Below are positions 33,470-35,850 of a DNA stretch of 64,000 nucleotides, piece by piece. A program made the translations under genes and the position numbers. The notes beneath the pieces were generated by a model. The model was given only the letters and a program-made list of their open reading frames with translations. It was not told the origin of the DNA and did no database searches. The stretch covers positions 4,246,001-4,310,000 of the forward strand of contig NZ_CP016634.1 of assembly GCF_002741075.1 (NCBI RefSeq), read 5' to 3'. Within the stretch, counting starts at the first letter, position 1; each line of letters starts with the position of its first letter. The DNA is from Pseudomonas putida. GTDB taxonomy: Bacteria; Pseudomonadota; Gammaproteobacteria; Pseudomonadales; Pseudomonadaceae.

Positions 33470-34441
33470 ATGAAGTTCTTGGTTGTCGGCGGCGCGGGCT
33501 ACATAGGCTCGCACATGGTCAAACACCTGCGTTGCGCAGGTCACCAAGTCATGGTGGCGGACAACTGCGCCTGCAGGCCACGTCCAGACTGGGTCAGGCT
33601 GGACATCGCCGATGCCCATGCCCTGGATGCCTTGTTCACCCAGCATCGGTTCGACGCGGTGTTTCACTTCGCCTCGTTCATCCAGGTGGGCGAGTCGGTG
33701 ATCGAGCCGTCCAAGTACTACCAGAACAACGTCGTCGCGACCCTGACCTTGCTTCAGGCCATGGTGCGCGCCGATATCCGTCACCTGATCTTTTCCTCGA
33801 CCGCCGCCGTGTACGGCGACCCGCAGCATGTGCCCATCGACGAAGCGCATCCCAAGCATCCGATCAATCCTTATGGACGCAGCAAATGGATGGTCGAGCA
33901 GATCCTCGAGGACTTCGACCGCGCCTATGGCCTGCGCTCGGTATGCCTGCGCTATTTCAATGCCGCGGGTGCGGATCCGGAAGGCGAGCTGGGCGAATGC
34001 CATGAGCCGGAGACCCACCTGCTACCCTTGATCCTGCAGGCGGCCTCCGGGCGGCGCGAGGCGATCACGGTGTACGGTCGGGACTACGACACGCCGGATG
34101 GCACCTGTATCCGCGATTACATCCATGTGGCCGACCTGGCCGCGGCGCATTCACTGGCGGTGGACTACCTGCTCGCCGGTGGCGCGAGCACGGCATTCAA
34201 CCTGGGCAATGGCCTGGGCTTCTCGGTGCAAGAGGTGATCGACACTGCCTGCGGCGTGACCGGCCGCAAGATCGCCACCAGCGACGCACCACGCCGCGCA
34301 GGGGACCCACCCCGGTTGGTGGCCGATGCCAGCCGGGCGAGGACCGTGCTCGGCTGGCGCCCGGCGTTCGCAGCGCTGGAGCAGATCGTCTCGCATGCCT
34401 GGCACTGGGAGCAGAAGTACCCGTGGTACACGCCCAACTGA
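33470..34441 (+). CDS. galE: UDP-glucose 4-epimerase
   Basis: Interconverts UDP-glucose and UDP-galactose, supplying precursors to the EPS transferases. The ATG at 33470 follows CAGGAGG and gives 323 residues. The Rossmann motif VVGGAGYIGSHMVKHL is at residues 5-20, the catalytic triad is seen as SSTAAVYG and YGRSK (Tyr and Lys near residues 142-146), and GADPEGELGE and RDYIHVADLA follow as in GalE. It lies 134 bases after the hydrolase gene, probably in the same rightward unit. Confidence 0.93.
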   Translation: MKFLVVGGAGYIGSHMVKHLRCAGHQVMVADNCACRPRPDWVRLDIADAHALDALFTQHRFDAVFHFASFIQVGESVIEPSKYYQNNVVATLTLLQAMVRADIRHLIFSSTAAVYGDPQHVPIDEAHPKHPINPYGRSKWMVEQILEDFDRAYGLRSVCLRYFNAAGADPEGELGECHEPETHLLPLILQAASGRREAITVYGRDYDTPDGTCIRDYIHVADLAAAHSLAVDYLLAGGASTAFNLGNGLGFSVQEVIDTACGVTGRKIATSDAPRRAGDPPRLVADASRARTVLGWRPAFAALEQIVSHAWHWEQKYPWYTPN

Positions 34442-34452
34442 TCAGCAATCCT

Positions 34453-34480
34453 CACCGGCCCATTCGCGGGTAAACCCGCT
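34453..34480 (+). repeat. Left part of a REP element split by the IS110 insertion
   Basis: CACCGGCCCATTCGCGGGTA and the following AACCCGCT match the P. putida REP up to its CCCGCT. The expected continuation CCCACAG is found 1172 bases later at 35653-35659, directly after the insertion element. Confidence 0.85.
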
Positions 34481-34489
34481 TGTATGGTG

Positions 34490-34684
34490 ATACTCGAAGG
34501 GGTGGTGGGACGAACAAACCGATTCTGACTGTTAGGCGCAGTACAGACCGTGGGAGACATCGCCCCACCCCTTCACCAAAGCGCCGATAAAGAATGCATC
34601 GTTTGCAAACGACGATAGAAGCAAGCCAGCGCCTCTTGGTGAAACCCCTCCGAGTTCAAAAACCATACCGTGGGAGTTCAGGCG
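34490..34684 (+). ncRNA. Candidate IS110 bridge RNA in the left non-coding end
   Basis: A perfect 10-bp stem (34496-34505 GAAGGGGTGG with 34565-34574) encloses an internal loop and a terminal hairpin (34525-34546). The right side of the loop carries GTGGGAG (34550-34556), complementary to CTCCCAC of the REP target including the CT core. The left side has AAACC (34516-34520), matching the target's left half. Further on, ACCATAC (34662-34668) is complementary to GTATGGT at the element's own left end, and ATAGAA (34615-34620) matches its right end. This is the order expected of target and donor guides. The structure was drawn by eye, so ends and details are approximate. Confidence 0.5.
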
Positions 34685-35647
34685 ATGGCAATGCGAGTAG
34701 ACAATTTCATCATCGGCATCGATGTCGCCAAGGCTGAGCTGGTCTGTTATTACGAAGACTCCGCCCAACAGCAGACCGTTAGAAACACCAAGCCTGAAAT
34801 CCAAAAGTGGCTGGCACTTCAGCCGGCCAATACCGCTATCTGCGTTGAAGCTACCAATGTTTACCATCTGGACCTGGTTGAGATGGCATACGAAAAGGGC
34901 TTCGCCGTCTATGTCGTCGACGGGTTTCAACTCAGCAACTACCGCAAGGGCGTTGGCGGACGCGTTAAAACCGATGCGTCCGATGCCTGCCTGCTGGCTC
35001 GCTTCCTGGATCGCGAGGGCAGTGCTCTTCGTCCTTGGTCGCCCCCTCCAGCTGTCTACGGCAAGCTCCAGAGCCTGCTCCGGCGCAGAGCAGCGCTGGT
35101 TTCGGCGCGGACAAGTCTGACTCAGAGCTGGGGCAATGAAATGTCGCTCAAAGAGGCGTTCAACAGCTTTGCCAAGCACTTCGAGTCGCTTGATCTTCTG
35201 ATCCAGAAACGCCTGAAGGTCTTGGTAAAAGAGGCTGGCCTAGCCGAACAAGTCGCCCGCTGTCAGAAAGTTGAAGGGATTGGCTTCCTGACCGCTGTTG
35301 CCCTCGTCACCGCATTTATTCGGGGCGAATTCAAGAACAGTGATTCATACATCGCTTTTCTAGGCATGGACCTGAAAGTTGCAGATTCCGGCCAAAAGGC
35401 CGGACGTCGACGGTTGACCAAGCGGGGTTGTTCAGAGATCCGTCGATTACTGCATAACGCCGCCATGGCGGCCAGTAGGTCTGCGGCCTGGAAAGACGTC
35501 TACGAGCACTATCGCCGGGCAGGTAAGGCAACGACTCAGGCCCTGGTTATCTTGTCACGCAAGCTCGCCAGAGTTGCATTCGCCTTGATGAAGACCCAAG
35601 GCGAATACGTCAGCAAAGGGGCAAAAAAGCTTTGCCCTCAACCATAG
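34685..35647 (+). CDS. IS110-family transposase (DEDD recombinase)
   Basis: The 320-residue protein has the N-terminal RuvC-like DEDD domain, beginning IIGIDVAKAELVCYY with the first catalytic Asp, the TDASDACLLARFL segment near residue 100, and the C-terminal Transposase_20 domain with VEGIGFLTAVALVTAF and GRRRLTKRGCSEIRRLL. It acts as an RNA-guided DNA recombinase in characterised members. The ATG at 34685 follows TTCAGGCG; a GTG at 34670 is an alternative. The stop TAG lies 5 bases from the right end of the element. The frame is intact, so it may be active. Confidence 0.93.
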   Translation: MAMRVDNFIIGIDVAKAELVCYYEDSAQQQTVRNTKPEIQKWLALQPANTAICVEATNVYHLDLVEMAYEKGFAVYVVDGFQLSNYRKGVGGRVKTDASDACLLARFLDREGSALRPWSPPPAVYGKLQSLLRRRAALVSARTSLTQSWGNEMSLKEAFNSFAKHFESLDLLIQKRLKVLVKEAGLAEQVARCQKVEGIGFLTAVALVTAFIRGEFKNSDSYIAFLGMDLKVADSGQKAGRRRLTKRGCSEIRRLLHNAAMAASRSAAWKDVYEHYRRAGKATTQALVILSRKLARVAFALMKTQGEYVSKGAKKLCPQP

Positions 35648-35660
35648 AATCTCCCACAGA

Positions 35661-35713: not shown

Positions 35714-35832
35714 TGCTTGCAATGGAACTGTGAGCCTCCAGCGAGGCTGAAGGCTTGCAGTGAACCTGTGAGACCTGCAGTGAGCCTATGAGACTTGCAG
35801 TGAGACTAGAGGCTTGTAGTGAACCTGTGGGA
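35714..35832. repeat. Degenerate tandem repeats of about 20 bases
   Basis: Imperfect units resembling GCTTGCAGTGAACCTGTGAG occur about six times in succession, for example from 35714, 35752, 35772, 35792 and 35811. The last unit merges into the REP at 35825. The units differ at several positions, so the array is old. Confidence 0.7.
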
Positions 35833-35850
35833 GCGGGTTTACCCGCGAAG
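35825..35850 (-). repeat. REP element, leftward orientation
   Basis: CTGTGGGAGCGGGTTTACCC followed by GCGAAG is a complete P. putida-type REP in inverse orientation to the one split by the IS element. The two probably formed a facing pair before the insertion and repeat growth. Confidence 0.85.

Follow-up and report, generated by a model that had tools for sequence, protein, structure and literature searches.

Bridge RNAs have been described for insertion sequences (IS) of the IS110 family, and repetitive extragenic palindromic sequences (REPs) are among the targets named for them (PMC11208160). ISPpu10 is one of the six elements for which that paper presents predicted guides, targets and donors (Extended Data Fig. 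10c). According to an earlier description, both ISPpu9 and ISPpu10 have a single insertion point in the Pseudomonas putida REP, and ISPpu10 leaves a 2-bp repeat (PMC1525189). Here we describe an IS110-type element in a window of 64,000 nucleotides, the whole stretch of DNA analysed (P. putida assembly GCF_002741075.1, contig NZ_CP016634.1, positions 4,246,001 to 4,310,000 of the forward strand; coordinates below are positions in the window). From its sequence we hold with high confidence that it belongs to the IS110 group and that its left non-coding end encodes a bridge RNA, which would explain at the level of single bases why the element sits in REPs. Like ISPpu10 of P. putida KT2440 (IS110 group), judged by its published description, the element inserts at one REP point. 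Because bridge-RNA guides have already been predicted for ISPpu10, another REP-inserting IS110 element, the present element belongs to a known kind, and it could be identical with ISPpu10 or closely related to it.

The founding bridge-RNA element, IS621 of Escherichia coli, has the same recombinase family, a CT core and a target loop followed by a donor loop, and it also targets REPs (PMC11208160). Its donor, ACAGTAT-CT-TGTAT, is nearly identical to the ATAGAAT-CT-TGTAT of the present element; the right donor guide of IS621 is GCAAG, like the probable one here, and the probable left donor guide lies on the same side of the loop as in IS621. In IS621, G161 and donor T12 are reported to form a non-canonical pair (PMC11208158). 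ISPa11 and other IS1111-type elements are described with seekRNAs that have short matches to both target strands, as in the present element, and ISPa11 targets the REPs of P. aeruginosa (PMC11187229). The predicted guide RNA region of the present element lies upstream, unlike that of ISPa11 and the IS1111-type elements. ISPpu9 of P. putida KT2440 is likewise of IS110 type, with the same REP insertion point and a long structured leader (PMC8450116).

The genome contains seven full copies of the element and one 57-nt fragment, and all seven copies sit at one identical point of a REP or REP-like sequence. The left half of the site is AAACCCG in six copies and GAAGCCG in one, while the right half with the core is CTCCCAC in six and CTCCTAC in one; in one copy (L001) the remainder of the left REP half is degenerate. 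When the flanks are joined a REP is restored (GCGGGTAAACCCG-CT-CCCACAG), and an intact REP copy lies at ~35827-35850 on the opposite strand. The element runs from T 34481 to the core CT at 35651-35652, the left-hand CT being 34479-34480. Relatives have the same element start and the same right end, ATAGAAT-CT.

Both target guides covary with the insertion site. Element DNA was matched in 93 of 398 genomes of the genus, own genome included. In a first test the 5' side of the first loop was compared with the left flank at 105 loci (49 distinct pairs; L036, which has no left flank, was absent), and one offset stood out with a z of 7.5, the others ranging from -3.2 to 1.6. The set was then enlarged from the genus loci to relatives from other genera and from named genomes, for which the best 80 of 282 were used. 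This enlarged test, which skipped L156, L162, L165, L193 and L216, covered 188 loci and 79 distinct pairs; some of the 188 loci are one place represented twice, and these are collapsed in the distinct pairs and in the 148 distinct insertions. Identity over the seven positions of the left guide was 75%, compared with 54% in permuted pairs (z 13.0, reached in 0 of 1000 permutations), and the other offsets gave z values from -4.4 to 2.8. With one row per distinct left guide (n = 39) the mean was 5.38/7 versus 3.46 (z 11.1), and permutation within three sub-clades gave z values of 5.0, 5.8 and 7.4. The guides AGGCTCG, AAGCTCG, AAGCCCG and AAGCCGG occur on the same backbone, each with copies at the identical target. 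The 39 distinct left guides, several of them on near-constant backbones, represent naturally occurring retargeting, and the rules of target choice can be deduced from them. Two of 135 loci (L008 and L017) could not be oriented, and 27 loci were excluded from the guide, donor and promoter counts: 26 second copies, and L022, a separate place left out inadvertently, whose guide CAGTTCG compares by eye with CAGTCCG at 6/7.

The preliminary description had assigned the right target guide to GTGGGAG on the right side of the loop, complementary to a REP half plus core, and this is borne out. The motif forms part of the 3' side of the first loop and tracks the site: 8/8 distinct left ends with GTAGGAG are at CTCCTAC, compared with 4/66 of those with other right guides (Fisher 3e-8, a value that counts related elements separately). 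Since GTGGGAG recurs at 34670-34676, close to the start codon, its presence proves little; the covariation with the site does, and GTAGGAG/CTCCTAC therefore identifies GTGGGAG at 34550-34556 as the right target guide. For the left guide the same description had proposed AAACC. The letters are present at 34516-34520, but the register is one base off and the guide begins earlier, with CAAACCG. Read in the proposed register (offset -1), left guides showed no excess over permutations (z -0.2 in the first set and 1.0 in the enlarged set).

An alternative is that the left end is a mere regulatory 5' leader controlling translation of the transposase, and that the protein alone recognises the REP. ISPpu9 offers a precedent, in that its structured leader is reported to limit translation and an antisense RNA to relieve it (PMC8450116), and the start codon of the present element is likewise overlaid by an antisense site that resembles a promoter. 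One would not, however, expect a leader to follow the insertion site base for base, and we consider this explanation very improbable. Comparing guide and site in homologues was also the check by which the bridge-RNA reading was to stand or fall, and a differing site mostly comes with a differing guide, despite misfits.

The bridge-RNA reading also has the following points against it. The permutations disregard most of the phylogeny, and in the enlarged set offset -4 is slightly in excess as well (z 2.8, 4/1000 permutations). Misfits of the left guide in the first set are AGCTCGT (1-2/7), AAAGCCG at TGGCCCG (3/7) and locus L077 (2/7), and in the enlarged set TGACGCG (0/7) and AAATCCG (3/7). Left ends with the right guide GTGAGAG are at CTCCCAC, not CTCTCAC (2/2 distinct left ends); one left end with GTGGGAG was found at CTCTCAC. 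In the window itself CAAACCG matches its own target, AAACCCG, at just 5/7. Among 88 CTCC[CT]AC sites sampled in 463 kb of the genome, 17 of which are AAACCCG, 25 match CAAACCG at 5/7 and none better. AAACCGA, one base further, also matches AAACCCG at 5/7. The seven own-genome copies alone therefore cannot fix the register. The pair types in the comparative fold described below number 14, compared with 14.4 in shuffles, so that there is no excess. Finally, the donor hardly varies among relatives, and the covariation shown is that of the target guides.

The left end folds at -72.9 kcal/mol, against a mean of -56.5 kcal/mol for dinucleotide shuffles, and is better than 200 of 200 of these (z -3.96). 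A constrained comparative fold of 37 relatives, drawn from 56 distinct left ends, has two loop modules, target first and donor second; pairing was forbidden in positions 1 to 14 and in the columns presumed to hold guides. In the 37 relatives 91.9% of cells are paired (column shuffles 87.0%, slid controls at most 52.9%) and both partners change in 7 of 30 pairs, with the proviso that the fold and these statistics come from one alignment, which favours the structure. The loop order and the general fold (stem, internal loop and hairpin) are as the preliminary description had them, although the stem is of 12 bp with a one-base bulge and not of 10 bp. When RNAalifold was run without constraints, part of the right target guide became paired, and that fold was not retained. 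The IS621 RNA is described with a 5' stem-loop ahead of the target loop (PMC11208158). The present left end has no such stem-loop, its region 5' of the target module being only 18 nt; some relatives in other genera are longer there. We treat the 5' stem-loop as a trait of IS621, not as a defining feature of bridge RNAs.

The right end, core and left end join as ATAGAAT-CT-TGTAT. AAAGAAT on the 5' side and GCAAG on the 3' side of the donor loop are the probable donor guides, by analogy with IS621. They agree with the joined ends at 6/7 and at 4/5 plus a G-T pair, respectively, and the donor is near-constant among relatives; the two bases after AAAGAAT are GC, which mismatch the core CT. Donor loops were parsed in 86 of 92 distinct left ends (51 with ACAAG and 35 with GCAAG). 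The parser demanded GAAT and CAAG, so the conservation of both is better judged on the alignment of relatives, in which CAAG is conserved. L048, L130, L142, L180, L207 and L226 were not parsed; in L142 and L180 the donor-loop letters are present by eye.

Different donor guides had been proposed in the preliminary description: the right end was assigned to ATAGAA (34615-34620), the left end to ACCATAC (34662-34668). Both motifs are present, and their letters are identical or complementary to the ends of the element. However, only 2 of the 86 parsed left ends have, after the donor loop, a 7-mer that complements their own left end, and 24 of them have ATAGAA on the 3' side of the loop. A right donor guide should lie on that side; AAAGAAT, on the 5' side, suits the left donor half. 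ACCATAC lies outside the donor loop and is not conserved, and a -10-like box of the other strand accounts for ACCATA. We regard this assignment as exceedingly unlikely, and AAAGAAT and GCAAG as the better fit.

On the minus strand ACCATA reads TATGGT and stands 18 bases past a TTGCCA that covers the first codons. No other promoter-like site was detected in 34400-34800, where 0.2 are expected. The pattern TTG[CT]CA-17/18-TAnnnT occurs in 83 of 91 distinct left ends; two have the first box alone and six are without it, and TA...T is nearly missing at other spacings from 8 to 39. Among the 18 loci listed from outside Pseudomonas or of other genera, 14 have the site (L141, L142, L143 and L160 do not). 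The -10 is weak, with a mean of 2.9/6 to TATAAT where spacing 22 gets 2.8, and the -35-like box overlaps coding sequence and was the anchor of the search; the motif could instead be a sense-strand element. ACCATA is similar to the -10 of a conserved antisense promoter like the one published for ISPpu9. There, the mapped antisense promoter has its -10 over the ribosome-binding site and its -35 within the first eight codons and yields a stable RNA, Asr9, so that an antisense promoter or promoter-like site lies over the transposase start in both elements (PMC8450116). A search near the IS621 start revealed no site of this kind. A terminator-like site for the antisense RNA at 34614-34597 was one match where 0.4 are expected, and was not used.

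A second promoter-like arrangement may be formed where the ends of the element join in a circle, with TTGCCC at the right end and TATGGT at the left end. Over 73 distinct junctions agreement with TTGACA is highest at spacer 17 (mean 3.14/6; next 1.96), though only 26% of the junctions reach 4/6. Two -10-like boxes that face each other would explain the complementarity of ACCATAC and GTATGGT that the preliminary description had attributed to a donor guide.

It is possible, though we hold it only tentatively, that in this clade (Pseudomonas, Alcanivorax, Halomonas) the antisense promoter yields an anti-bridge RNA complementary to the bridge RNA itself, that antisense control acts on the amount of bridge RNA as well as on the translation of transposase, and that Asr9 of ISPpu9 would be such an anti-bridge RNA. 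If real, the conserved antisense site would show how an RNA-guided recombinase is restrained. Within an open-licence library, none of the papers matched names both Asr9 and a bridge RNA, and judged by their titles and abstract openings the related papers make no link between an antisense RNA and a bridge RNA. ISPpu9 differs by its description in having an AG repeat on the transposase strand, where the present element has CT, a leader of 244 nt, and a second RNA, Ssr9, downstream (PMC8450116). Read on the opposite strand, this AG repeat is CT; Asr9 is described as abundant, stable and antisense to the leader (PMC8450116). Either Asr9 or the leader may be the bridge RNA of ISPpu9.

By analogy with IS621, the element would leave as a circle with its right and left ends joined at the core CT, and a promoter spanning this joint would transcribe the left end. 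The RNA would form a complex with the recombinase, and in the donor loop AAAGAAT and GCAAG would pair with the joined ends. The DEDD recombinase would then swap strands at CT.

The gene product supports assignment to the IS110 family. It exceeds the cut-offs of PF01548 (DEDD RuvC-like N-terminal domain, 74 bits) and PF02371 (C-terminal domain, 60.7 bits), scores 167.7 bits with NF033542 (IS110 family RNA-guided transposase; cut-off 140), and matches in sequence the solved recombinases of ISCro4 and IS621 (PDB). D13, E55, D97, D100 and S235 are invariant across 15 relatives, and we take these to be the catalytic D, E, D, D and conserved serine of the family. The stop codon is at 35645-35647, and GTG at 34670 is an alternative open start. 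The left non-coding end is 204 nt (34481-34684), long as in the IS110 group of the family. The right one is short, as the preliminary description had said (about 5 bases): 3 nt from stop to core, or 5 nt with the core CT. The ends of the element form a short inverted repeat (34482-34488 and 35641-35647) that changes on both sides in relatives: ACCATAG/GTATGGT in 71 insertions and AACATAG/GTATGTT in 44, but also ACCATAG/GTATGCT in 6, GCCATAG/GTATGGT in 3 and GACATAG/GTATGTT in 2. The coordinates of all features are given in Table 1.

Table 1 Features of the IS110-type element and its insertion site, in window coordinates
Feature	Position	Strand	Basis
Whole IS110-type element, including right-hand copy of core CT	34481..35652	+	Ends common with relatives
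Left target half AAACCCG and core CT, within REP	34472..34480	+	Sequence; 7/7 copies at same point
Right target half CCCAC of REP, after core CT	35653..35657	+	Sequence
Target-binding module: 12-bp outer stem, internal loop, hairpin	34499..34573	+	Comparative fold, 37 relatives
Left target guide CAAACCG, followed by core guide AT (34522-34523)	34515..34521	+	79 distinct guide/site pairs
Right target guide GTGGGAG, complementary to CTCCCAC	34550..34556	+	Covariation with site
Donor-binding module	34572..34643	+	Comparative fold 34576-34639; TTCACCAA/TTGGTGAA may lengthen the stem here
Probable left donor guide AAAGAAT, 5' side of donor loop	34589..34595	+	6/7 to ATAGAAT
Probable right donor guide GCAAG, 3' side of donor loop	34621..34625	+	Pairs CTTG, then G with T
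Left donor half ATAGAAT, right end, overlapping transposase stop codon	35644..35650	+	Sequence
Right donor half TGTAT, left end	34481..34485	+	Sequence
Promoter-like TTGCCA-18-TATGGT, pointing into left end	34662..34691	-	ACCATAC lies on its -10
Possible -10 TATGGT of circle-junction promoter, with TTGCCC 35632-35637, spacer 17	34483..34488	+	Weak consensus, 8/12
Transposase/recombinase gene, 320 aa from ATG	34685..35647	+	PF01548, PF02371, NF033542

An Rfam scan of the window at gathering thresholds returned two tRNAs only, with no match on the element, and a plasmid collection searched with the element gave no match. At the level of the phylum, an RNA model of the left end gave one weak match outside the own genome (L153, E 8e-4); this match and L145 (E 0.007) looked spurious by eye and were set aside.

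Several further observations concern relatives and remnants of the element. The 57-nt fragment in the own genome (C2:2309856-2309912) is a lone piece of the right end with 98% identity, and the small contig C1 carries another IS110-type transposase, a 393-aa open frame (C1:11248-11670). On one contig (L049 and L050, at 124208 and 125560), two copies of a relative stand in tandem ~175 bp apart, each after the left target AAGCTCG-CT. The five IS621 matches listed each consist of two pieces over 249-262 bp. In E. coli NN5 (L136:1587-1740) IS621 carries the beginning of its left end twice, and the second left end directly follows ATCGGGC-CT, the left target guide of the first; from its sequence this looks like an insertion into the element's own guide.
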